Source of the DNA: Frigoribacterium sp. PvP032
GTDB lineage: Bacteria > Actinomycetota > Actinomycetes > Actinomycetales > Microbacteriaceae
Direction of reading: 5' to 3'
Length of the DNA: 64,000 nt
NCBI RefSeq assembly: GCF_017833035.1
Contig: NZ_JAFIBM010000001.1
Location: 124,001 to 188,000, forward strand
Both the position numbers and the translations under genes were made by a program. This document shows positions 23,214 to 41,759 of the stretch, in pieces; the stretch's first letter is position 1, and each line of letters opens with the position of its first letter. The notes under the pieces were generated by a model. That model searched no databases, had not been told where the DNA came from, and saw nothing but the letters and a program-made list of their open reading frames with translations.

Positions 23214-24497
23214 TCAGCCGTGGCGCAGGTCGCGCAGCACCGCGCCGAGCGTCGAGACGAGCTCGTCGACCTCGTCCTCGGTGATCACGATGGGCGGCGC
23301 GAGACGGATGGTCGAGCCGTGGGTGTCCTTGGCGAGCACGCCGCGGCGCATCAGCTCCTCGCAGACCTCGCGGCCCGTGCCGACCGCCGGGTCGATGTCG
23401 ATCCCCATCCACAGGCCTGCCCCGCGGACGGTCACGACGCCCGAGCCGACGAGCGCCTCGAGGCCGTCGCGGAGGCGTGCTCCGAGTCGGCTCGCCCGCT
23501 CCTGCCACTCTCCGGTCGCGAGCATCCGCACCACGGCGAGGCCGACCGCGGCGGCCAGCGGGTTGCCGCCGAAGGTCGAGCCGTGCTCGCCCGGCCGCAG
23601 CACCCCGAGCACGTCCCGGTCGCCGACCACCGCGCTGACGGGGACGATGCCGCCGCCGAGGGCCTTGCCCAGCAGGTACAGGTCGGGCACCACGTCGACG
23701 AGGTCGCAGCTGACGGTGGCGCCGGTGCGGCCGAGGCCCGACTGGATCTCGTCCGCGATGAACAGGACGTTCCGCTCGCGGGTGATCCGGCGCACCTCCG
23801 GCAGGTAGGAGGCGGGCGGCACGACCACGCCCGCCTCGCCCTGGATCGGCTCGATCAGCACGGCGACGGTGTCGTCGTCGATCGCGGCCTCGAGGGCGGC
23901 GGAGTCGCCGTAGGGCACCGTGACGAATCCGGGGGTGTACGGACCGAAGTCGGCCCGCGCCTCCTCGTCGTCAGAGAAGCTGATGATCGTGGTCGTGCGT
24001 CCGTGGAAGTTGCCGGCCGCGACGACGATCTTCGCAGCGCCGGGCCGGACGCCCTTGACGCGGTAGCCCCAGGCGCGGGCGACCTTGATGCCCGACTCGA
24101 CGGCCTCGGCACCCGTGTTCATCGGGAGGACCATCTGCTTGCCCAGCAGAGCCGCGAGCTCGGCGGCGAACGGGCCGAGCTGGTCGTTGTGGAACGCCCG
24201 GCTCGTGAGGGTGACGCGGTCGAGCTGCTCCCTGGCTGCCGCGACGAGCGCCGGGTGGCCGTGGCCGAAGTTCACCGCGGAGTAGGCCGCGAGGCAGTCG
24301 AGGTACCGGCGACCGTCGACGTCGGTGACCCAGGCGCCCTCGGCCGTCGACACGACGACGGGCAGCGGGTGGTAGTTGTGCGCCAGCGAGGCATCCTCGA
24401 CGGCGATCGCCGCGGTGGTCGCGCTCGAGGTCGCGGCGGTGGTCGCGCTCGTGGTCGCGTTCATGATCGAGGAGGTGCGGGTCGTCTCGGTCGTCAT
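23214..24497 (-). CDS. rocD: Ornithine aminotransferase
   Basis: A PLP enzyme (class III) that converts ornithine and 2-oxoglutarate to glutamate semialdehyde and glutamate. The 427-residue product shows YLDCLAAYSAVNFGHGHP, MNTGAEAVESGIKVARAWGY, NFHGRTTTIISFSDD, EPIQGEAGVVVPP, ADEIQSGLGRTG, the PLP lysine in LLGKALGGG and GEHGSTFGGNPLA. Residues 1-30 are a Thr/Ala-rich leader (TTSATTAATSSATT). The ATG overlaps the ddaH stop (ATGA), so the pair forms an operon. With ddaH it suggests catabolism of arginine-derived compounds through ornithine or citrulline, under the divergent AsnC-type regulator. Confidence 0.94.
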   Translation of the reverse strand: MTTETTRTSSIMNATTSATTAATSSATTAAIAVEDASLAHNYHPLPVVVSTAEGAWVTDVDGRRYLDCLAAYSAVNFGHGHPALVAAAREQLDRVTLTSRAFHNDQLGPFAAELAALLGKQMVLPMNTGAEAVESGIKVARAWGYRVKGVRPGAAKIVVAAGNFHGRTTTIISFSDDEEARADFGPYTPGFVTVPYGDSAALEAAIDDDTVAVLIEPIQGEAGVVVPPASYLPEVRRITRERNVLFIADEIQSGLGRTGATVSCDLVDVVPDLYLLGKALGGGIVPVSAVVGDRDVLGVLRPGEHGSTFGGNPLAAAVGLAVVRMLATGEWQERASRLGARLRDGLEALVGSGVVTVRGAGLWMGIDIDPAVGTGREVCEELMRRGVLAKDTHGSTIRLAPPIVITEDEVDELVSTLGAVLRDLRHG

Positions 24498-25399
24498 CGT
24501 CGCAGCTCCAGGGTGCAGCACTTCACGCCGCCCCCGCCGAGCAGCAGCTCGGACAGGTCGACGCCGATCGGGTTGTAGCCGAGCTCGCGCAGCTGGCGCT
24601 CGAAGCCGGTGGCGGCCGCGGCGATCACGACGTTGTAGCCGTCGCTGTAGGAGTTGAGCCCGAGGATCGAGGCGTCGTCCTGGCCCACGAGCACGGCGTC
24701 CGGGAACCGCTCGCGCAGCACGGCGAGCGACGGCTCGTCGAAGGCGCTCTCGAGGTAGGCGATGTTGTGCACGCCGTCGACGGGCTCGGGGTCGAGCACG
24801 GCGATCGCCGTGTCGAGGTGGTAGAAGCTCGGGTCGACCAGGGTGAGGCCGACGACCTCACGGCCGAAGACCCTGGCGACCTCGGCGTGCGAGTCGGACG
24901 CGCTGCGGAAGCCGGTGCCTGCCAGGACGACGTCGCCGACGAGGAGGAAGTCGCCCTCGCCCTCGTTGACCTCCTCGGGCACGACCACCTCGAAGCCTGC
25001 GGCGGCGAACCAGTCCATGTAGGCGGGACCCTCCGGCTGGCGCTCGGGGTAGGTGAAGCTCGCGCCGTAGGCCTTGCCGTCGAGCACGAAGCCGCCGTTG
25101 GCCGAGTAGACCATGTCGGGCAGGCCGGGCAGGGGGTCGATCAGCTGGACGTCGAAGCCGAGCCCGAGGTAGGTCTCGTAGAGTGTCTGCCACTGTGCGA
25201 CGGCGCGCGAGGTGTCGGTCGGCACCTGCGGGTCCATCCACGGGTTGATGCGGTAGCTGACCGTGAAGTGCTCGGGTCGGCACATCAGCACGGTGCGGTG
25301 CGACGCATGTCTGGTCGGCGGCTGCGGGGCCTCGGGAGAGGGCTGGACGGTCTCGGCGGCGATGCTCACGCTGACCAGTGTCACACCCACGATGCGCAC
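24494..25399 (-). CDS. ddaH: Dimethylarginine dimethylaminohydrolase-like amidinotransferase-fold enzyme
   Basis: A 301-residue guanidino-modifying enzyme. DDAH releases citrulline and (di)methylamine from methylated arginines. Motifs: CRPEHFTVSYRINPWMD (substrate loop), MVYSANGGFVLDGKAYGASF, GEGDFLLVGDVVLAGTGFRS (Asp/Glu of the active site), FYHLDTAIAVLD (catalytic His) and the C-terminal nucleophile region GGGGVKCCTLELRR. The first 30 residues are poorly conserved, and the start could be GTG 25399 or a later GTG. It is coupled to rocD by ATGA. Some close homologues act as agmatine or ornithine cyclodeaminase-like enzymes, so the substrate is not fixed by sequence. Confidence 0.85.
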   Translation of the reverse strand: MRIVGVTLVSVSIAAETVQPSPEAPQPPTRHASHRTVLMCRPEHFTVSYRINPWMDPQVPTDTSRAVAQWQTLYETYLGLGFDVQLIDPLPGLPDMVYSANGGFVLDGKAYGASFTYPERQPEGPAYMDWFAAAGFEVVVPEEVNEGEGDFLLVGDVVLAGTGFRSASDSHAEVARVFGREVVGLTLVDPSFYHLDTAIAVLDPEPVDGVHNIAYLESAFDEPSLAVLRERFPDAVLVGQDDASILGLNSYSDGYNVVIAAAATGFERQLRELGYNPIGVDLSELLLGGGGVKCCTLELRR

Positions 25400-25464: not shown

Positions 25465-25911
25465 ATGCCCGATGTGGACAACCTCGACTACGGCATCATC
25501 GATCTGCTCCGGCAGAACGCCCGCGCGGGCTACGGCGACATCGGGTCGTCGGTGGGCCTCAGCGCATCGGCCGTCAAGCGCCGTGTCGACCGCCTGGTGG
25601 CGGACGGCGTCATCAGGGGCTTCACCGTCCAGGTCGACCCTGCCGTCGAGGGGCTCGGCACCGAGGCGTTCGTCGAGCTGTTCTGCCGGGGCACCGTCTC
25701 GCCCGCCGAGCTGCAGCGCATCCTCAGCACCGTGCCCGAGGTCGTCGACGCCGGCACCGTCACGGGCAGCGCCGACGCGATCGTGCACATGCGCAGCCGT
25801 GACATCCCGTCGCTCGAGGAGGCGCTCGAGCGAGTGCGCAACGCCCCGAACGTCGACCACACCCGCAGCGCCATCGTGCTGTCCAAGCTGATCAGCCGCC
25901 GCACCGCCTGA
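25465..25911 (+). CDS. AsnC/Lrp-family transcriptional regulator
   Basis: A 148-residue regulator. The N-terminal helix-turn-helix is DYGIIDLLRQNARAGYGDIGSSVGLSASAVKRRVDRLVADGVI (7-49). The C-terminal RAM/ligand-binding part includes EVVDAGTVTGSADAIVHMRSRDIPSLEEAL (about 93-122). It is divergent from ddaH-rocD and most likely controls that operon in response to an amino acid such as arginine or ornithine. ATG 25465 has no Shine-Dalgarno but sits 8 nt after TAAAAT, suggesting a leaderless mRNA. Confidence 0.9.
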   Translation: MPDVDNLDYGIIDLLRQNARAGYGDIGSSVGLSASAVKRRVDRLVADGVIRGFTVQVDPAVEGLGTEAFVELFCRGTVSPAELQRILSTVPEVVDAGTVTGSADAIVHMRSRDIPSLEEALERVRNAPNVDHTRSAIVLSKLISRRTA

Positions 25912-26303: not shown

Positions 26304-29300
26304 TCAGATCTTGAGGTCGCGCAGCTCGGGGTCGACGAGGCCTGACCGGTGGGCCGTGACGGACACGCTCTGCTCTCGCACGAACGTCAGCAGCTCGACC
26401 CGCCCCTCGTCGGTGACGTCCCCGCCGTGCACCACGACGTCGACGCTGCCGCCGACCGCACGCGCGAGGGCCCTGGGGTCGCCGCCGATCAGCCTGACGT
26501 GCAGATCGCGGTACGCGGCGACCGCCGCCTCGTCGGGCTCGGGCACGTCGCCCTCGCCGTCGCCCTCCGGCTCTGCTGCGGGGTCGCTCGACCCCGTCGC
26601 GCGCGCGAGCAGGCTGAGGTCGTCCAGCTCGTGGCCGGCCTCGCGGACCTGGAGCAGACCGGCGGAGGCGCGGGCCAGGAAGGCCTGGTCGCTCTCGACG
26701 ATAACGGCGCCGACGCGCATCGGCGACGCCGGCGAGTGCAGCAGCCGGACGAGCGACGCCGGGACGGGCACCGCCGAGCTGACGGTGATCGGGGCACGGA
26801 CGCGGGCGGCGGCCACGAGGAGGCGCACGAGCTCGGAGAGGTCGGCGTCGGACGAGAGACGGAGCAGGACGGGCCGCGGCCGGTAGCGCAGCACGTTCCG
26901 CTCGACCCCGAGTTCGGAGGCGTCGTGCGCCACGCCGACGTGGGCCTGCCAGGCGCGCTCGTCGCTGACCGCCCCTGACCGGACACGGTCGAACTGCTCG
27001 AACGACAGCGACGACCGGGCCGCCTCGATCACGGGGACGACCTCGTCGGGGACGCCGGTGAGGCGCAACGACGGATGGGGCTCGCGCGACGGTCGCCACC
27101 ACGAGCCCTGCGCGAGCAGCTCGTCGGGACCGCCCGGCGCGACGGCGGGGCCGACGACGGAGCTGCCCCACGAGGCCGACGGCCGGCGACGCACGACCAT
27201 CGGCGAGGTGGGCCGGCCGACCACGAGCGTGCCTGCCCGGACCCGACGCAGCCACGTGTCGACCTCGTCGACGTCGAGGCTGTGCAGGGCGGCAGAGCCG
27301 CCGGCGCTGAGCCGCTCCTGCTGGTCGATCGCGGTGTCGAGGTCGTCCACCTCGACCAGGGAGAGCACGGGCGCCGCGGCGGCGGCCGTGCGGGCGGCGG
27401 ACTCGGGCGTGACGCCCGTCTTGACGCCGGGAGACCAGAGCCCGCCGTCGTCGTCGAGCTGCCGGGGCTCGACGAGCCAGCTCTCGCCGGGCGCCAGGAT
27501 CGTGAGGGCCTCGAGCACTGCGCCCTCGGCCGGGTCGATGAGCGGGCCGACCTGCGTCGTCGCGTCGTCGGGCCAGCCGGCCCGCAGGCTCGTCACCGCG
27601 TCGACGAGCTGGCGGCGGAAGCGCTCGGCATGCGCCGCCGAGCCGACGAGCACGGCCGTCCGCGAGGCGGACGGGGCCTGGCCGGCGAAGCGGAAGGCAC
27701 CGGCGACGAGGTCGGCGGCCGCGAGGTCGGCGTCCGCACTCGGGGTCACGACCGCGACGGCGGCCACGGGCACCTCGGCGACGAGGTCGAGGTCCGGTCG
27801 CCACGAGCGGAGCTGCCGCGCCTGCTCGAGCGAGCCGGTCAGGCGCACCCGATCGACGGCCGGGTGCCCCATGAGCCGGCGGCCGGCCTCGGAGTCGAGC
27901 TCGAGGTCGGCGAGGACGAGCAGCGCGCGCGGCACCCCCGCGCCCCAGAGGACCTCAGCCAGGACGGCCGCGGTGCGGCGCGACTCCCGCGCCGGGCAGA
28001 GGAGGACAGCGCTTCCCGCGGCGAGCGCGGCGAGGACGGGCTCCGCCGCCGAGACGAGGGGCGTGCGCCACGAGGACACGACGACCGTCAGCCGAGGAGG
28101 CGCGTGCCGGGCCCCGACGACGCTCGCCTCGCCGCGGGCGAGACCGGCGTGGTGCCGCGCCGAGTCGACCGCGGCGCTGACCTCGGGGTCGGCCCCGTCG
28201 AGCACCGAGCCGGTCTCGCTGACGAGCACCTCGACCAGCGCGGCGCGCTGACGCGCGATGCCGTCGGCCGCGAGCTCGAGCAGCTCGGCCCGCGTCGCGG
28301 GCGCTTCCCGGCCCCAGGCGGCGCCGGCCTGGGCCGCATCGGTGACGAGCTCGTCCACCAGGGCCGCGCCGTCGGCGCCGTCGACCTGGGCAGCCTCGAT
28401 CGTGTCGAGCCCGGCGTCCGAGCGGCGCGAGGCGGCGAGCACGCGCCGGGCCCACGCCCGGTTGCCCTCGAGCCCGGGGTCCGTGTCGGGCTCGTTGCGG
28501 AACGACGACGAACCGTCGAGGTCGAGGTCGGCGACGGCGAGGTGGGGGCGCGAGCGGTCCTGGCGACGGGCGGGCGGCGGCACGTCGTCGTCGTCGGCCT
28601 CCTCCGCCGCGGCGACCGCCTCGCGGTACCGGACGGCCTCTCGGTCGAACACGGGACCCTGCGGCGCGAGGTCGGCGGTCGCGGCGAGGGAGGACCCCGG
28701 AGCCGCGACCTCGGCGAGACGCCGGACGACGTGGTCGGCGGCGGCCTCGAGGTCGCCGTGCTGCACGACCGGAGCGCGGACGACCAGGTCGCCGACCTCG
28801 GCCCTGACCGCCCGGAGGAGCCCGCGCGACGTGCCGAGGGGCATCTCGATCGTGAGGTGCTGGGTCACCTCGCGCCGCTTGGCCAGCGTCCAGGCGTGGG
28901 CCACGACGAAGGGGTCGTCGGTCACGAGTCCGAGGTGGGCGAACTCGGCCGACACGGGGCGCAGGGCGTGGTCGAGCACCCGGAGGAGCGCGGCGTCGGC
29001 CTCGGCCCTCGAGGTGTGGGTCGCGACGGGCCAGTCGTGCAGCGCGGCGTCGACGGCCTCGAGCGCGACGCCGCCCACGGTCAGCCGGACGCGGATGGGC
29101 GCACCGCCGCGGGCGACGCGCCCGCGCGCCCAGTCGGTCAGCAGCTGCAGGGACGCCAGGGCGTCGGGCACGTGGGCCTGGATCTCGATGCCGGCCTCGA
29201 GGTCGGCGAGCTGTGGCTGGTCGAGCAGCCGGGTGAAGACGTCGATGGCGAGGTCGAGGTGCCGGTGCTCGTCGACCTCGAGGTCGACGGTCTTGGGCGG

Positions 29301-29933
29301 GTCGGAGGCGAGCGCCAGCTCGTAGAGGGGCGTGAGCGCCTCGACCGCCGCGGACGCGCGCTCGTCGGCGCCCCAGGCCGCGCCCGTCCCGACCACGGAG
29401 GCGACGGGTACGGAGACGTGCTGCACGTCGTCCCGCTCGAGCAGGGTCCGTGTCGCGTCGACCCTGCGGCGGGCGGCCGCCTCGCCGAGCACCGGCTCGC
29501 CGAGCAGGACGAGGTCGAGGCGGGCGCCGTCGGCCGCGGCCGCGAGGACCGGCCCGAGCTTGTCGGGGGCCGCCTCGACGACGAGGTGCTGCACGAGGCG
29601 ACGGAGCGCCTTCCGAGCGACGGGCACGACGGTGCGCGGCGCCAGCGGGCCGAAGCCGCCGCCCGCGGCGACCGCGGCCTTGAGCTGCCAGGGCAGCGAG
29701 GCGGGCATGTCGCGGCTCAGGCGATCGAGCTGTCGCGCGGCCACCGCGGGGTCGTCGGGACGGACCACGCGATCGGCGAAGGCCACTGCGAAGGCGAGCC
29801 CGTCGGGGTCGCGGAGCAGCGCCGAGAAGCGCTCGGCCGCCGCGTCGGCGGGGACCGAGGACGCGACGATGAGCCACCGTCGCACCGTGTCGACGACCTG
29901 GGAGGTGAGATCGGCGGCGCGCACATCGGACAT
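26304..29933 (-). CDS. PutA-like protein lacking proline dehydrogenase and P5C dehydrogenase catalytic motifs
   Basis: A 1209-residue homologue of bifunctional PutA (proline to glutamate), uninterrupted across both domains and the C-terminal region (NVLRYRPRPVLLRL). The key motifs are all replaced. In the PRODH half, the usual RLVKGA-type strand reads RLTVGG (283-288) and the EFEMLEGMA-type strand reads TIEMPLGTS (361-369). In the aldehyde dehydrogenase half, PWN is SWR (620-622), ETGGKN is EVPVAA (720-725), the nucleophile motif GQKCSA is GQAPSA (751-756, no cysteine) and PFGG is PSAS. Scaffold features such as LRSWRPDL, ESWLVEPR and LHSLD are well kept. It may be a pseudoenzyme with a structural or regulatory role. 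Leaderless start: TATCCT lies 6 nt before ATG 29933. Divergent from a MarR gene. Confidence 0.85.
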   Translation of the reverse strand: MSDVRAADLTSQVVDTVRRWLIVASSVPADAAAERFSALLRDPDGLAFAVAFADRVVRPDDPAVAARQLDRLSRDMPASLPWQLKAAVAAGGGFGPLAPRTVVPVARKALRRLVQHLVVEAAPDKLGPVLAAAADGARLDLVLLGEPVLGEAAARRRVDATRTLLERDDVQHVSVPVASVVGTGAAWGADERASAAVEALTPLYELALASDPPKTVDLEVDEHRHLDLAIDVFTRLLDQPQLADLEAGIEIQAHVPDALASLQLLTDWARGRVARGGAPIRVRLTVGGVALEAVDAALHDWPVATHTSRAEADAALLRVLDHALRPVSAEFAHLGLVTDDPFVVAHAWTLAKRREVTQHLTIEMPLGTSRGLLRAVRAEVGDLVVRAPVVQHGDLEAAADHVVRRLAEVAAPGSSLAATADLAPQGPVFDREAVRYREAVAAAEEADDDDVPPPARRQDRSRPHLAVADLDLDGSSSFRNEPDTDPGLEGNRAWARRVLAASRRSDAGLDTIEAAQVDGADGAALVDELVTDAAQAGAAWGREAPATRAELLELAADGIARQRAALVEVLVSETGSVLDGADPEVSAAVDSARHHAGLARGEASVVGARHAPPRLTVVVSSWRTPLVSAAEPVLAALAAGSAVLLCPARESRRTAAVLAEVLWGAGVPRALLVLADLELDSEAGRRLMGHPAVDRVRLTGSLEQARQLRSWRPDLDLVAEVPVAAVAVVTPSADADLAAADLVAGAFRFAGQAPSASRTAVLVGSAAHAERFRRQLVDAVTSLRAGWPDDATTQVGPLIDPAEGAVLEALTILAPGESWLVEPRQLDDDGGLWSPGVKTGVTPESAARTAAAAAPVLSLVEVDDLDTAIDQQERLSAGGSAALHSLDVDEVDTWLRRVRAGTLVVGRPTSPMVVRRRPSASWGSSVVGPAVAPGGPDELLAQGSWWRPSREPHPSLRLTGVPDEVVPVIEAARSSLSFEQFDRVRSGAVSDERAWQAHVGVAHDASELGVERNVLRYRPRPVLLRLSSDADLSELVRLLVAAARVRAPITVSSAVPVPASLVRLLHSPASPMRVGAVIVESDQAFLARASAGLLQVREAGHELDDLSLLARATGSSDPAAEPEGDGEGDVPEPDEAAVAAYRDLHVRLIGGDPRALARAVGGSVDVVVHGGDVTDEGRVELLTFVREQSVSVTAHRSGLVDPELRDLKI

Positions 29934-29974
29934 GGGTCGAGGATAGGCCGGACCCCCGTCCCTACACTGGGCGA

Positions 29975-30499
29975 ATGGCCGAGCGACTCTCCGACGACGA
30001 GTGGGCCGTCTGGGACGCCTTCTACTCGATGCGCCGGCGGCTCGACCGTGCCCTCGAGCTGAGGCTGCACGACGACTCCGGCGTCTCGGCGCCCGAGTAC
30101 GAGATCCTCGTGGGCCTCGGCCGCAGCGACGACCGCCGGCTCCGGGTGCGCGACATCGCCGAGCAGATCGGCTGGGAGAAGAGCAGGGTCAGCCACCAGG
30201 TCACCCGCATGGAGAAGCGCGGCCTCGTGCGCCGCACCGACTGCGCGTCCGACGCCAGGGGCACCTGGGTCGAGCTCACGGCCGACGGCCGCCGGTCGAT
30301 GCTCTCGGCGACCCGGGGTCACACCGCCGCGATCCGGCGCTACTTCGTCGAGGCGCTGCACGACGACGCCGCGACGCTGGAGTCGTTCTCCCGACGCGTG
30401 CTCGAGGCCATCGGCGACGACGCGTCGCCCGATCAGCACGCCTCGCCCGACCACGCCGGGTCGCGGGACGACCCCGGCGTGGTGGCCCGCGCCTCCTAG
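29975..30499 (+). CDS. MarR-family transcriptional regulator
   Basis: A 174-residue winged-helix regulator: LSDDEWAVWDAFYSMRRRLDRALE (dimerisation helix), APEYEILVGLG, VRDIAEQIGWEKSRVSHQVTRMEKRGLVRRT (recognition helix and wing start, about 58-88), then DARGTWVELTADGRR (wing). The last 35 residues are a His/Asp/Pro-rich tail. TACACT (29963-29968) sits 6 nt before ATG 29975, so the mRNA is probably leaderless. It is divergent from the PutA-like gene with 41 bp between starts, so it may regulate that gene as well as itself. Confidence 0.92.
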   Translation: MAERLSDDEWAVWDAFYSMRRRLDRALELRLHDDSGVSAPEYEILVGLGRSDDRRLRVRDIAEQIGWEKSRVSHQVTRMEKRGLVRRTDCASDARGTWVELTADGRRSMLSATRGHTAAIRRYFVEALHDDAATLESFSRRVLEAIGDDASPDQHASPDHAGSRDDPGVVARAS

Positions 30500-30525: not shown

Positions 30526-31479
30526 TCAGTGCCGGCGGTGGTCCTGGATGGTCATGCGCGGGCCGAACCTCGGCTTCGCGAACCCGCTGGCCGAGATGAG
30601 CCGCACGACCCGCTCGCGGTGGCCCCGCCACGGCTCGAGCAGCTCGAGCATGCCGTCGTCGTCGACGGGCCTGCCGATCAGCGCCCACCCCACGAGGGCA
30701 GGGAGGTGGTAGTCGCCGACGCTCGGCGAGTCGGCGTCGCCGAGGGCCCGCTGGGTCGTCTCGGCTGACGTCCAGACGCCCACGCCCGGGATCGAGCGCA
30801 GCCGGGCCTCGGCCTCCTGACCGCCCCGGCCCAGGTCGACCACGCGCTCCAACGAGGAGGCGACGGCGCAGACCCGCATGACGGTCGCGGACCGCTGCGG
30901 CCCGACCCCCGCACGGTGCCACTCCCAGCTCGGCACCCGACGCCACGTCTCGGCCGAGGGCGGCACGACCATGCCCTCGGGAGCCGGCCCCGGCGCAGGG
31001 TCGCCGTGCGCCCGCACGAGCTGGCGCCAGGCACGCCACGCCTCGGCGCTCGTCACCTTCTGCTCGAGCACCGCGGGCACGAGGACCTGCACCACCTGGC
31101 GGCCCCTGGTGAGCCGGAGGCCGGGCGACCGCCGTCTGGCCTCGCGGAGGAACGCGTTCCCCGAGACGTCGAGGCCGCTCCAGTCGTCGCCGTGGCCGAG
31201 CAGCTCGGGGACGCCCTCGATCAGCCACTCGGCACCGGGGCCCCACGCCGACGCACGCACCTCGGAGCGGCCGCCGGCGAGGCAGAGGGTGCCGGGGCCG
31301 TGGGGCGTCCGCACCGCGCGCCAGACGCGCTCGCCCTCCACGCGCCAGGCAGGGTCGCCCGCTCCCCTCGCGAGCGTGCGCAGGGTCGCCCGGACGTCGA
31401 CGGGCTCGGCCGGACGGTAGACCGTCTCGACCGGTCGGAACAGGGCGGCGTCGACGGACGCCTCGGGGACCAGGACCAC
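30526..31479 (-). CDS. AlkA-like HhH-GPD DNA glycosylase
   Basis: A 317-residue base-excision repair protein. The HhH-GPD hallmark is LRSIPGVGVWTSAETTQRALGDADSPSVGDYHLP (about 238-271): hairpin PGVG followed by the catalytic aspartate in SVGDYHL. An upstream segment VLVPAVLEQKVTSAEAWRAWRQLV (about 130-153) is typical of 3-methyladenine glycosylase II relatives. The GTG at 31479 has TAGCAT 6 nt upstream, the leaderless pattern. It is divergent from a GntR gene. Confidence 0.85.
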   Translation of the reverse strand: MVLVPEASVDAALFRPVETVYRPAEPVDVRATLRTLARGAGDPAWRVEGERVWRAVRTPHGPGTLCLAGGRSEVRASAWGPGAEWLIEGVPELLGHGDDWSGLDVSGNAFLREARRRSPGLRLTRGRQVVQVLVPAVLEQKVTSAEAWRAWRQLVRAHGDPAPGPAPEGMVVPPSAETWRRVPSWEWHRAGVGPQRSATVMRVCAVASSLERVVDLGRGGQEAEARLRSIPGVGVWTSAETTQRALGDADSPSVGDYHLPALVGWALIGRPVDDDGMLELLEPWRGHRERVVRLISASGFAKPRFGPRMTIQDHRRH

Positions 31480-31553: not shown

Positions 31554-31563
31554 TCGGAGGAAC

Positions 31564-32268
31564 ATGCCTGTGCCGACCTACGCCACCCGCCACCCGCGAC
31601 GCCTGCTGCGGGACCTGACGTTCGAGACGATCCGCGACGCCATCGTCGACGGCACCCTGACCCCTGGCGAGCGGCTCTTCGAGGACGACCTCGCCGCGTG
31701 GCTCGGCGTCTCCAAGACGCCCGTGAAGGAGGCGCTGGCCCGGCTCTCAGCACAGGACCTGGTGCAGATAGAGGCCAACCGGTACACCCGGGTCGCGACC
31801 GCGGACGACCTCGACCTGCTCGACACGCTCGAGCTGATCGGCGTCCTGCACGGCGAGGCGGTCCGGTCGCTGCCGCAGGGCGCCGCAGACGGTGCCGCCC
31901 GGCGTGCGGACCGGGTGCTGGCCGTCCTCGACGCCGGCCCGACCTGCCTCGACCTCGTCGAGGCCAGCGGGGCGTTCCTCGAGCTGGCCCGCAACCCGCT
32001 CGTGCGGCGGGCCGCCGAGCCCCTCGACATCCGGGCCGCGTTCCTCTGCCGCCACCTCGCCGTCGACTGGTCTCGCCCCTCCGTCGCGGGCCACCTCGCC
32101 GACCTGCGCCGGTCGCTCGGCAGCCGCGACTGGCCGGGCACCGCCGACGCCCTCCAGCGCGTCTTCCGTCGATCGTCGCTGCACGACGCGATCATCACGC
32201 TCCCGACGACGACGCTCGTCGACGACTCGGCCCACGCCCGCCCCCGCACCGCGGCGGTGGACCGATGA
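31564..32268 (+). CDS. GntR-family regulator (FadR-like), paralogue 1
   Basis: A 234-residue regulator. The N-terminal winged helix is LLRDLTFETIRDAIVDGTLTPGERLFEDDLAAWLGVSKTPVKEALARLSAQDLVQIEANRYTRVA (about 14-78). The C-terminal helical domain is FCD-like but lacks the usual metal-binding histidines (EASGAFLELARNPLV). Shine-Dalgarno GGAGG lies 4 nt before the ATG. The stop overlaps the start of a sugar transferase gene (ATGA), so both are made from one mRNA. Three further paralogues with the same GERL..WLGVS(R/K)TP(V/I) core occur in this window. Confidence 0.88.
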   Translation: MPVPTYATRHPRRLLRDLTFETIRDAIVDGTLTPGERLFEDDLAAWLGVSKTPVKEALARLSAQDLVQIEANRYTRVATADDLDLLDTLELIGVLHGEAVRSLPQGAADGAARRADRVLAVLDAGPTCLDLVEASGAFLELARNPLVRRAAEPLDIRAAFLCRHLAVDWSRPSVAGHLADLRRSLGSRDWPGTADALQRVFRRSSLHDAIITLPTTTLVDDSAHARPRTAAVDR

Positions 32269-33032
32269 CCGCCACCCTGACCACGACGAGCCGTCCACCG
32301 GCGAGCGCCGGCCCCGGCGACCGTCCTCTCGCGATGCCGCCACACGCGATGCCGCCGCACGCGACGTCGACGTCGACGTCTCGACGGCACAGCGGGGACG
32401 CTCACCCGCCACGCCCGCGCGAGGCCCCGGCGCGGCGCGGCGCGGCCCGGCGCGCCAAGCGCGTCGCCGACGTGGGAGCTGCCCTCGTCTGCCTGGTGCT
32501 CCTCCTCCCCCTGCTCCTCGTCACGGCACTCGCGATCCGCCTCGACAGCGGCGGCCCCGTCCTCTTCCGACAGCAGCGCGCGGGTCTCGACGGGCTCGAG
32601 TTCTCGATGCTGAAGTTCCGCTCGATGCGTGCCGACCGGCACGAGCTCCCCGAGGGGCCACACGACGGGGCCGGCCCCCTGTTCAAGCTGCACGCCGACC
32701 CGCGCGTCACCAGGGTCGGCCGCGTCATCCGCAGGTACTCGATCGACGAGCTGCCCCAGCTCGTCAACGTGCTGCGCGGCGAGATGAGCCTGGTCGGCCC
32801 GCGCCCGGCCCTGCCGTGCGAGGTCGCGGTCTACGACGACCGGGCTCGTGAGCGGCTCCTCGTGCTGCCCGGCCTCACGGGCCCGTGGCAGGTCGGCGGC
32901 CGGTCGGATCTCGACTGGGACTCGAGCCTGGCCCTCGACCTCGGCTACGTGCACCAGTGGACGGCGACGACCGACCCCGTCCTGGTGCTCAAGACCGTCG
33001 GCGCCGTGCTGCGGCCGGTCGGCGCCTACTGA
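32265..33032 (+). CDS. Initiating sugar transferase (polyprenyl-phosphate glycosylphosphotransferase)
   Basis: A 255-residue protein: a 60-residue disordered Thr/Pro/His-rich N-terminus, one hydrophobic segment (VADVGAALVCLVLLLPLLLVTALAIRLD), then the bacterial sugar transferase domain. The domain shows GPVLFRQQRAGLDGLEFSMLKFRSMR, RVGRVIRRYSIDELPQLVNVLRGEMSLVGPRPALP and LPGLTGPWQVGGRS. Such enzymes move a sugar-1-phosphate onto undecaprenyl phosphate to start an exopolysaccharide or glycan repeat. No other polysaccharide genes lie nearby. It is translationally coupled to the GntR gene upstream, and its 3' end overlaps the convergent GntR gene by 7 nt. Confidence 0.9.
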   Translation: MTATLTTTSRPPASAGPGDRPLAMPPHAMPPHATSTSTSRRHSGDAHPPRPREAPARRGAARRAKRVADVGAALVCLVLLLPLLLVTALAIRLDSGGPVLFRQQRAGLDGLEFSMLKFRSMRADRHELPEGPHDGAGPLFKLHADPRVTRVGRVIRRYSIDELPQLVNVLRGEMSLVGPRPALPCEVAVYDDRARERLLVLPGLTGPWQVGGRSDLDWDSSLALDLGYVHQWTATTDPVLVLKTVGAVLRPVGAY

Positions 33033-33766
33033 GTCGGCGCGGCACGGCTCGGCACGACAGGTCGACCCGGGCCGGGACGCCCCGCTCGAGCCGTCGCCAC
33101 CACCCGACTCGTCAACCGCGAGACGGCGTCGCCCCACGCGCAGGCGTCCCGCTCGGCCAGGGCCGCCCCCGCCGACGCCGCGAAGTCGTCCCACACCGTC
33201 AGCTCGACGACACAGCGCCGTGACCGCAGGCCGTGGGCCAGACGCAGCTCGGCCACGTCGAGGGCCGACGCGACGACGTCGCCGGGCGACCTCGCCGCGA
33301 GCCCGCCGACGGCCAGGCCGAGACAGCACAGCAGCGCGACGGTGACGGGCCGGCCGGAGGCGCGCCGCACCACGGGCCGGACCGCACCCAGCGCCGAGAC
33401 GGTGGCCTCGAGGCAACGAGGCCCGAGCCCCGGCAGGACCCCCTCGGCCGCGGCCCTGTGCAGCGACGAGACCGCCGACGCGCTCTCCGCCAACCACGAG
33501 CCGTCGGGGTCTCGGACCCTCGTGAAGCGGTTCGCCGAGAGCTCGACGAGACCCGTGCAGCGCAGCCTGTCGAGGGCACTGCGGATCGGCGTGCGGGAGA
33601 CGCCCAGCCAGGCCACGAGCTCGTCGTCGTGGAGACGCTCGCCGGGCTCGAGGGTGCCGTCGAGCACCGCGTCGCGGAGCACGCGGAACGCGTCCTCGCT
33701 GAGCAGCCGCCGCTCGTCGACGACGGGTGCGAGGACGGGGGCGGGGCCCGGCGCGGGCTCGTTCAT
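33026..33766 (-). CDS. GntR-family regulator, paralogue 2
   Basis: A 246-residue protein with winged helix [64 protein letters not shown] (about 20-83) and a divergent helical effector domain with few polar metal ligands. ATG 33766 overlaps the stop of paralogue 3 (ATGA), giving a two-regulator operon. The C-terminal part is Ala/Arg-rich. No ligand can be inferred. Confidence 0.83.
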
Positions 33767-34479
33767 CGGCGCCACCACGAGGGCCGCGGCACCTCGAGGG
33801 CGGGGCGCGCCCTCGCAGTCCGTCGGGCGAGGCGGTCGAGGGCGGACCTCAGGAGGAGCGGATCGGCGGCGACCACCGCCGCGTCGACCTCGGCGAGGCA
33901 CTCCGTCAGCGGGCCGACGTCGAGGCCCCGCCCGAGGGCCGCAGCCTGGTGGCGCAGCCGTGCGCCGAGGTCGCCGAGGAGCTGCCCCGTGACCTCGGAC
34001 GGCCCGGAGCCCTCGAGCTGCGCCACGCAGGCGAACGCGGCGTCGACCACGGCGCGGGACTCGCGTGCTCCCGGCCTGGGCGATGCTCGGAACGCCTCGA
34101 CCGCGACGGCGCAGCGCTCGAGCGCCAGCCGGCCGTCGCCCGCCGCCGTCGGCGCGAGGAGCCCGTGCCCGGCGCGGGGCAGGTCGCGCCAGAGCCCGCA
34201 GAGCGCCACGACGAGATCGGGGACCACCGACGGGCGCAGCCTGGCCACGCGCGTCCAGCGCTGCGGGGCGGCCTCCACCAGGCCGATCTGCTCGAGGCGG
34301 ACGAGCGCCGTGCGGATGGGCGTGCGCGACACGCCCAGCCAGGTCTCGAGGTCGACGTCACGCAGGCGGGCGCCGGCCGGCAGGTCTCCCGAGACGATCG
34401 CGGCGAGCAGCCGGTCGTGGACCTCGTCCTTGTGCAGGCGACGGGCGATGACCCGTCGTCGTTCATCCGGTACGGGCAC
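33763..34479 (-). CDS. GntR-family regulator, paralogue 3
   Basis: A 238-residue protein with winged helix [64 protein letters not shown] and a helical C-terminal domain. I choose GTG 34479 because AGGAGG lies 4 nt upstream; an earlier in-frame GTG at 34515 has no Shine-Dalgarno. Upstream is a GTGTGACACACGCTACAC tract that could be an operator. It is divergent from the TrhO-like gene and coupled to paralogue 2. Confidence 0.83.
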
Positions 34480-34564
34480 GGCGCCTCCTCGTGTGTGGTG
34501 TGTAGCGTGTGTCACACTAGGGCATAGATGCCCTGGGATCGCCTGGGTCGACTACGATCCAGCG

Positions 34565-40957: not shown

Positions 40958-40987
40958 TAGGCTCACATGATGTATCGGATGTCCGAT
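40958..40987 (+). promoter_or_regulatory. Probable promoter and operator of the fourth GntR gene
   Basis: TAGGCT (40958-40963) is a likely -10 element. Just downstream ATCGGA (40974-40979), TG, TCCGAT (40982-40987) form a perfect palindrome, placed where a bound regulator would block transcription. The coding start is about 80 nt further on. Confidence 0.5.
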
Positions 40988-41069
40988 GCGTCCCTCGCAC
41001 ACCACGGCAGACCGCGACCGGCACAGGGAGCCCCGCAGTCCGCCCCTCTCTCGACATGGAGCAACCCGG

Positions 41070-41759
41070 ATGCCGATCCCCCAGCTGACAGACCAGCCGC
41101 CCGCACCCCGTCGCCTCCTGCGCGACGTCGTCTACGACAAGATGTTCGCCGCGATCATCGACGGCACGCTCGAGTTCGGCGAGCGCCTGAACGACGAGCA
41201 GCTGGTCGCCTGGCTCGGCGTCTCCCGCACGCCCGTCCGCGAGGCCATCGCCAAGCTTGCGGACCAGGCTCTCGTCGACATCGAGGCGAACCGCTACACG
41301 CGCATCGTCGACCCCACCTACGACGAGTTCGTCGACACGATCGACGTCGGCTACGGAGTGTGGGCGATGGTCGTCGAGCGCGCCGTGCCGAAGCTCTCCG
41401 ACGCGCAGCGCGCCGAGGTGGTGCGGCTCCTCGACGCCCGTGCGAAGGCCTTCGCCGCCGGCGAGGCCGACGACGTGACCACGCTGGTGCGGGTGAACGA
41501 GCTGTTCCTCGAAGCCGCCCGCAGCTCGTCGCTCGCACGCCTCTGGTCGAACAACGCGCCCCGCCTGGCGCTCCTCGCCCAGCGACCGATCTTCAGCGGC
41601 GTCGTCCACCACGACGAGGCACGCGCCTTCAACGAGGCGCTCCGCGACGCGGTCCGCGACGGCGACGCGGCTGCGGCCGCCGAGTCGATCCGCCTGCAGC
41701 CGGGCCGCCTCCAGGGCTGGTTCGACGCCGTCCGCGAGGCCGGCATCTACCGAGCGTGA
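41070..41759 (+). CDS. GntR-family regulator, paralogue 4
   Basis: A 229-residue regulator. Its winged helix is [65 protein letters not shown] (about 14-78), nearly the same core as the paralogues at 31.5-34.5 kb. The effector domain is helical, with VRVNELFLEAARSSSLARLW in the position of an FCD metal site but without the histidine. ATG 41070 has GGAG about 8 nt upstream. The GTG start of the ABC ATPase gene overlaps its stop (GTGA), so the two are coupled. Confidence 0.87.
   Translation: MPIPQLTDQPPAPRRLLRDVVYDKMFAAIIDGTLEFGERLNDEQLVAWLGVSRTPVREAIAKLADQALVDIEANRYTRIVDPTYDEFVDTIDVGYGVWAMVVERAVPKLSDAQRAEVVRLLDARAKAFAAGEADDVTTLVRVNELFLEAARSSSLARLWSNNAPRLALLAQRPIFSGVVHHDEARAFNEALRDAVRDGDAAAAAESIRLQPGRLQGWFDAVREAGIYRA

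Follow-up and report, generated by a model that had tools for sequence, protein, structure and literature searches.

The genome of Frigoribacterium sp. PvP032 (a single contig of 3.33 Mb) encodes two homologues of PutA, the textbook bifunctional, channelling enzyme, and one of them, PutA2, is most probably a maintained, catalytically dead PutA (probability roughly 0.8). Its gene lies in a stretch of 64,000 nucleotides (the window; contig NZ_JAFIBM010000001.1, positions 124,001 to 188,000), to which the coordinates in Table 1 refer. The frame runs on the minus strand from an ATG through 1209 codons with zero internal stops. This reading draws on the loss of catalytic residues from a retained scaffold, on the presence of the gene throughout the genus and on its codon pattern.

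PutA2 carries proline dehydrogenase (PRODH) and pyrroline-5-carboxylate (P5C) dehydrogenase (P5CDH) domains on one chain, as seen with Pfam (Pro_dh, E 6.4e-21; Aldedh, E 9.4e-55; both above the cut-offs), in the best match among solved structures and by Foldseek. That best match, the PutA of Corynebacterium freiburgense (PDB 5ux5; E 3e-166), covers two long stretches (residues 9-445 and 532-1045); together with the Pfam domains, it bears out the original prediction, made from the sequence of the window, that the PutA scaffold is present from end to end. The best NCBIfam PutA model gives PutA2 141 bits against a cut-off of 747, a score that is little informative because the intact PutA1 of the same genome misses the same cut-off (367 bits). 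An N-terminal ribbon-helix-helix DNA-binding domain, a trait of trifunctional PutAs, was not found in PutA2 by Pfam at E values up to 1, a search that returned only Aldedh and Pro_dh. The last motif of the C-terminal domain (R1178, E1180, L1182, Q1188, H1195, R1196 and G1198) is kept in all 15 in-frame Frigoribacterium copies of PutA2 and is invariant in 27 functional PutAs. An AlphaFold2 model of residues 10-1209, built on a 28-sequence alignment that included functional homologues, reached a predicted local distance difference test score (pLDDT) of 87.2 and a predicted template modelling (TM) score of 0.87 at best, with pLDDT below 50 only at 456-467 and 1089-1120 of the model. Searched with Foldseek, this model matched 5ux5 first (TM 0.90 by target length and 0.72 by query length, 30% identity) and then other PutAs among the matches listed. 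The model makes it plausible that PutA2 retains the PutA fold; it is silent on the binding of flavin adenine dinucleotide (FAD) or nicotinamide adenine dinucleotide (NAD).

Whether a normal PutA exists elsewhere in the genome, a question raised with the original prediction, is answered by PutA1 (locus L002), which lies at 3.00 Mb, is 46% identical to PutA2 and has intact motifs. Aligned with PutA1, the aldehyde dehydrogenase (ALDH) motifs of PutA2 read GQAPSA for GQKCSA, EVPVAA for ETSGKN, SSWRTP for PPWNFP and RRPSAS for RQPFGG, and the PRODH strands read RLTVGG for RVVKGA and TIEMPLGTS for EFEMLLGMA, much as had been described; two further PRODH replacements, K176 to P and D219 to E, go beyond that list. 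From the PutA and ALDH literature we take K176, D219 and the RLVKGA and EMLxGMA strands to be the catalytic positions of PRODH, and an Asn, a Glu and a Cys to be those of ALDH. In the window protein the PRODH set is altered not only at K176 and D219 but also at K286 (to V, in the RLVKGA strand) and at L365 (to P) and M368 (to T) in the EMLxGMA strand, and the P5CDH set is altered at N623 (to R) and C754 (to P), with K724 and F919 also replaced. The claim that every visible catalytic motif had been replaced thus holds in that both sites are altered and is slightly too strong in that E720, the VRRL arginines and R283 are retained. Compared with 5ux5, which PutA2 resembles in end-to-end homology and domain order, the difference lies in SIKATS, NLDMEE, RLVKGA, EMLQGMA, PWNFP, GQKCSA and QPFGG, all kept by 5ux5 and lost from PutA2.

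PutA1 and PutA2 are both present in all 16 Frigoribacterium genomes searched; relatives in this genus lie at 86-93% identity, and the next genus is Frondihabitans. PutA2 is in frame in 15 of the 16, with identity to the window protein down to 51%. Of 331 columns invariant in the 27 functional PutAs, 29 are lost and 111 kept across all 15 in-frame copies, which excludes chance. K176, L365, M368, N623, K724 and F919 are lost in every one of these copies. C754 is lost in 14, its sole survivor (L010) being itself without K176, N623 and E720; E720 is kept in five copies, and D219 is kept in four and lost in 11. The former GQKCSA motif reads GQAPSA, GQAPW(S/A/V), GRGHGA, GRSRVA or GQSCTS, depending on the clade. 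As judged by these alignments, the sites are gone genus-wide, and the loss was completed in different ways in different lineages.

A scaffold altered in this way could have been re-purposed as an enzyme with a new catalytic activity or with relocated catalytic residues. Fifteen positions are invariant in the 15 PutA2 copies and rare (<20%) in the 27 functional PutAs, and the replaced active-site stretch is strongly conserved in the window's clade (ratio 0.05, see below), both of which a new activity could explain. The 15 positions are, however, scattered from Q12 to L1144 and include no Cys, His or Lys, and the pocket residues vary among the Frigoribacterium clades. A conserved Cys/Glu pair elsewhere in the domain, which would have spoken against a dismantled site, finds no candidate: no Cys is invariant across an alignment of nine PutA2 copies, and a Cys at 646 is limited to the window's clade, the others having K, Q or R there. 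A re-purposed enzyme is thus very improbable. Alternatively, PutA2 could be a ligand sensor that has kept the binding of FAD, proline, P5C or NAD but not their turnover and signals its state to another protein. All 15 copies retain two residues of the RLVKGA strand (R283 and G287), the confidence of the model is good in both domains, and trifunctional PutAs are described in PMC5293562 as switching function with proline and flavin state. A sensor is nevertheless hard to reconcile with the six residues lost from every copy and D219 lost from 11 of 15, with the pocket-flanking segments 361-420 and 901-930 being among those that lose most conservation, or with the Pfam search at E values up to 1, in which no DNA-binding domain was found, and we regard it as improbable.

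The absence of stops was taken in the original prediction as a sign of selection, an argument that is weak at this GC content: neutral simulations that took the gene in the window as their starting sequence (six runs for each setting, with varied mutational GC and time) accumulated on average between 0.7 and 13 stops, depending on the setting, and several of the high-GC runs stayed free of them. The ratio of differences at codon positions 1 and 2 to those at position 3 is 0.202 in the window's clade (A), 0.258 in clade B and 0.438 in clade C (bootstrap limits 0.17-0.23, 0.22-0.29 and 0.40-0.48); here and in the YN00 estimates below, each group alignment was used from codon column 81 onward. 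In the simulations this ratio was about 1.1 or more, positions 1 and 2 changing at least as much as position 3 at every mutational GC tried. Since the ratio climbs with divergence in all groups, it was compared at matched third-position difference: PutA2 of clade B shows 0.258 at 0.237, against 0.248 at 0.229 for PutA1 of group C, and PutA2 of clade C shows 0.438 at 0.380, against 0.407 at 0.372 for Frondihabitans PutA2. By this measure the PutA2 ratios appear close to those of functional PutAs. Nonsynonymous to synonymous rate ratios (dN/dS, YN00) with close relatives, a check proposed with the original prediction, came to 0.033-0.072 where calculable (0.033-0.039 in clade A, 3/6 pairs; 0.037-0.072 in clade B, 10/15 pairs); PutA1 gave 0.021-0.024 in the A genomes (6/6) and 0.012-0.028 in the B genomes (14/15). 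The pairs calculable elsewhere were 0/3 for PutA2 of clade C, 2/3 for PutA1 of group C, 0/9 for Frondihabitans and 2/2 for a third genus (g32). Over the former ALDH active-site stretch (719-760), the codon-position ratio is 0.05, 0.15 and 0.35 in PutA2 of clades A, B and C and 0.05, 0.10 and 0.06 in PutA1, which suggests that the replaced stretch was held fixed afterwards in the window's clade. Over the C-terminal residues 931-1110 it is 0.17, 0.21 and 0.41 in PutA2 vs 0.24, 0.26 and 0.39 in PutA1. The codon pattern of PutA2 thus reads as purifying selection, and neither mark of a pseudogene, a broken frame or a neutral codon pattern, is seen in it (15 of 16 copies in frame, ratios of 0.20-0.44).

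Conservation along the protein is distributed differently in PutA2 and PutA1. Across nine genomes, PutA2 differs more than PutA1 by 25-fold in 361-390, 68-fold in 391-420 (with the denominator floored at 0.01) and 29-fold in 901-930, which are segments of the PRODH and ALDH sites, and by 15- to 17-fold in 31-60, 151-180 and 181-210; the factor is 0.9 in 961-990 and 1051-1080 and 1.4 in 61-90. Compared with ten diverse functional PutAs (mean identity 0.52 vs 0.54), PutA2 conservation is lower by 0.22 to 0.38 in 361-420, 721-780 and 901-930 and higher by 0.21 to 0.24 in 61-120 and by 0.25 to 0.40 in 961-990 and 1021-1080, in a comparison that scores a gap against a letter as a difference; regions of variable length, among them the C-terminal domain of those ten PutAs, therefore look less conserved. 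Segment by segment, conservation has shifted away from the active sites, toward residues 61-120 in the arm and certain C-terminal segments.

In a PutA tree computed with IQ-TREE (1175 columns), PutA2 of Frigoribacterium, Frondihabitans and g32 forms one clade (ultrafast bootstrap, UFBoot, 100), in which Frondihabitans PutA2 is sister to Frigoribacterium PutA2 (UFBoot 98); PutA1 of Frigoribacterium and Frondihabitans forms a separate clade (UFBoot 100). The orthology of PutA2 is confirmed by the ddaH-asnC-putA2-marR synteny common to the two genera: these genes are grouped in 16/16 Frigoribacterium and 3/3 Frondihabitans neighbourhoods (a fourth Frondihabitans locus was added separately), with ddaH and asnC on one side of putA2 and the divergent marR opposite. 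The Frondihabitans orthologue shares these neighbours and a near-identical 41-bp promoter region and differs in that its catalytic motifs are intact (L035, L036, L037 and L096), so that PutA2 was a functional second PutA before its active sites were lost in Frigoribacterium. In Frondihabitans sucicola (L101), a tblastn match spans residues 1-1198 and the longest frame, of 1056 amino acids, starts late; the first motif is missing and the other covered motifs are intact, and the late start could reflect a frameshift close to the N-terminus. In g32, the Cys is still present in L040, from which the PRODH Lys and a small number of further motif residues are gone, L038 has an Arg at the catalytic Cys position, and L082 (genome G176) has lost most motifs. 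By the motifs of these three genomes, the third genus shows a separate and incomplete erosion of PutA2. Because the intact Frondihabitans copies sit between the two eroded groups, erosion had two or more separate beginnings, barring the recovery of lost residues. Branching inside Frigoribacterium is moderately supported (74-85), and losses within the genus are therefore uncounted. In the family search (199 genomes), motifs were read in the best 30 loci, so that eroded copies elsewhere in the family may have escaped notice.

PutA2 had also been predicted to have its own promoter, next to a MarR regulator, and this is borne out at the sequence level. TATCCT stands at -12 to -7 from the putA2 ATG in 20/20 loci (16 Frigoribacterium and 4 Frondihabitans), positions -4 to -2 being variable, and on the marR side each base of CAGTGTAG is kept in 19 or 20 of the 20. 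Leaderless starts are suggested for both genes. A consensus promoter scan of the putA2/marR intergenic region found no sigma-70-type site. Of 299 genomes of the family, 15 match the marR half of the promoter within 2 mismatches; they fall in 5/85 genera and include 6/7 Frigoribacterium sampled. Some matching loci (three in other genera, plus one of the pair in G257) lie away from any putA2, so that the marR half resembles a generic promoter, and only the composite with TATCCT marks the locus.

Several observations weigh against a maintained, dead PutA or against the proposals built on it. The catalytic replacements vary among lineages. The codon-position ratios of PutA1 in the same genomes (0.142, 0.143 and 0.248) are lower than those of PutA2 in all three clades, and PutA2 dN is 1.6-4.7 times PutA1 dN in the 13 same-genome pairs computable for both with YN00; PutA2 thus appears less constrained than PutA1 at equal time. 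Its composition has drifted relative to PutA1 (Lys 0.4% vs 2.1%, Asn 0.4% vs 1.6%, GC at first codon positions 0.82 vs 0.74). The 41-bp promoter region is not shared by the three g32 loci, and part of its conservation may serve marR, with which it is shared. One of the 16 copies (L075, G006:C1:467565-471177) is missing one base at each of two sites compared with L012 and L017; because it is 98.9% identical to the open copy L017 (41 of 3616 aligned bases differ, with 8 private substitutions), the frameshifts represent either very recent breakage or perhaps assembly errors. This copy was considered as an internal neutral control and was dropped as too close to L017 to inform. Conservation does not extend over the whole arm, segment 31-60 of which shows 17-fold more differences than its PutA1 counterpart; the AlphaFold2 model leans to the PutA fold through the functional homologues in its alignment; and it is by analogy that we infer binding of PutA2 to PutA1.

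Part of this evidence would suit a dying paralogue, redundant with PutA1 and unselected for catalysis, which drifts slowly under weak constraint and whose loss is incomplete. Such a gene would be expected to show GC-driven amino-acid drift, catalytic residues lost lineage by lineage and codon ratios above those of PutA1; the partial erosion in g32, where a single pair of each paralogue, compared at the same third-position divergence, gives a ratio of 0.36 for PutA2 and 0.145 for PutA1, and the two frameshifts in G006 point the same way. Frameshifts in relatives had been named beforehand as a sign of ordinary decay, and they occur in this one genome, the other 15 copies being open even at 51% identity to the window protein. 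Nor does decay readily account for ratios of 0.20-0.26 in two clades, near those of functional PutAs at matched divergence, for a -10-like box kept in 20/20 loci, or for parts of the C-terminal domain conserved as in PutA1. Decay as the full explanation, tested with codon ratios, dN/dS, frames and simulation, is disfavoured; it remains the main rival, and we consider it rather unlikely. The predicted pseudoenzyme kept by selection is instead favoured by genus-wide retention, the codon-position and dN/dS tests, the conserved promoter and the redistributed conservation, and the alignments and the model support PutA2 as a pseudoenzyme in the sense of an enzyme fold without catalytic residues that selection has kept.

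Such a maintained pseudoenzyme is likely to act by non-catalytic contacts of some kind. PutA2 would have arisen as a second PutA, which by its motifs is an intact bifunctional enzyme in Frondihabitans and became a pseudoenzyme in Frigoribacterium, where it would catalyse neither the PRODH nor the P5CDH reaction. Expressed from the marR-linked promoter, it would work by protein contacts, for which the C-terminal domain and the arm around residues 61-120 are the likeliest surfaces. In type B PutAs, functional switching, channelling and ALDH activity have been tied to the C-terminal domain (PMC5293562). The original prediction had suggested a regulator of proline metabolism, a role that PutA2 may have. 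As a partner, PutA2 might bind and tune the intact PutA1 of the same cell. Inactive homologues that activate an enzyme are termed prozymes. An inactive homologue of S-adenosylmethionine decarboxylase activates the active enzyme by heterodimerization (PMC10211241); it is likewise a dead paralogue retained beside an active one and serves as the model for the proposed mechanism, although heterodimerization is a feature of that prozyme, whereas PutA2 is known here from its sequence. A second precedent is ALDH16A1, a human ALDH pseudoenzyme and superfamily member without the catalytic Cys, Glu and Asn and yet retained, according to PMC10650815; it is not a PutA, and in PutA2 the PRODH site is dismantled too. 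That PutA2 binds PutA1 specifically is the mechanism we prefer, as a tentative proposal. More doubtful still is its fullest form, in which a PutA prozyme without PRODH and P5CDH sites would bind and regulate PutA1 (or its membrane or flavin state) via its C-terminal domain and arm, and a second genus would be following the same path on its own.

Table 1. Features of the putA2 locus, in window coordinates.
Feature	Position	Strand	Remarks
Pseudo-PutA (PutA2), 1209 aa	26304..29933	minus	dismantled at both active sites
Pro_dh (PRODH barrel) domain, residues 134-412	28698..29534	minus	Pfam limits; K176>P, D219>E, K286>V, L365>P
Aldedh (P5CDH) domain, residues 522-928	27150..28370	minus	Pfam limits; N623>R, K724>A, C754>P, F919>S
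C-terminal domain and tail, residues 931-1209	26307..27143	minus	961-990 and 1051-1080 conserved as in PutA1 (same nine genomes)
Divergent promoter region, 41 bp, between putA2 and marR start codons	29934..29974	between genes	
putA2 -10-like TATCCT	29940-29945	minus	
marR -10-like TACACT	29963-29968	plus	
MarR-family regulator, divergent neighbour	29975..30499	plus	Pfam MarR_2 3.1e-13; synteny
Lrp/AsnC-family regulator (asnC), convergent with putA2	25465..25911	plus	synteny
Dimethylargininase (ddaH)	24494..25399	minus	NCBIfam NF045659, 421.6 bits, cut-off 300
Ornithine aminotransferase (rocD)	23214..24521	minus	TIGR01885, 478.8 bits, cut-off 378.4

Other features were observed in and around the locus. 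The product of ornithine aminotransferase is the substrate of P5CDH; rocD adjoins ddaH in 5/16 Frigoribacterium and 3/3 Frondihabitans neighbourhoods and was not found in the other 11 Frigoribacterium neighbourhoods, where ddaH and asnC are retained. In a genus with a single intact PutA (L091, genome G021), a MarR gene 55% identical to that of the window lies about 1.7 kb from putA, and a LysR gene directly adjoins putA. Beyond marR, the neighbour at 30526-31479 (minus strand) is conserved at 74-96% identity in 15 other Frigoribacterium neighbourhoods and has no Pfam match at E 0.001. The open reading frames at about 31560-32268, 33026-33901, 33763-34515 and 40986-41759 are clustered and mutually similar and carry GntR-like stretches (GERL...WLGVS.TP), as judged from translations and cross-matches.

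Pseudoenzymes are already known as a kind; among the papers listed in the literature searched, in which coverage of subscription papers was thin, there was no PutA pseudoenzyme or inactive PutA paralogue, nor any PutA that had lost both its sites and was yet retained throughout a genus. Genes of this type are likely named proline dehydrogenase or P5C dehydrogenase by homology, though activity is not expected of them, which calls for caution in annotation. As a single orthologous locus, putA2 provides a graded series, intact in Frondihabitans, partly eroded in g32 and fully eroded in Frigoribacterium. This series offers a practical test bed for non-catalytic roles of the PutA arm and C-terminal domain and for the way in which a large bifunctional enzyme becomes a pseudoenzyme.

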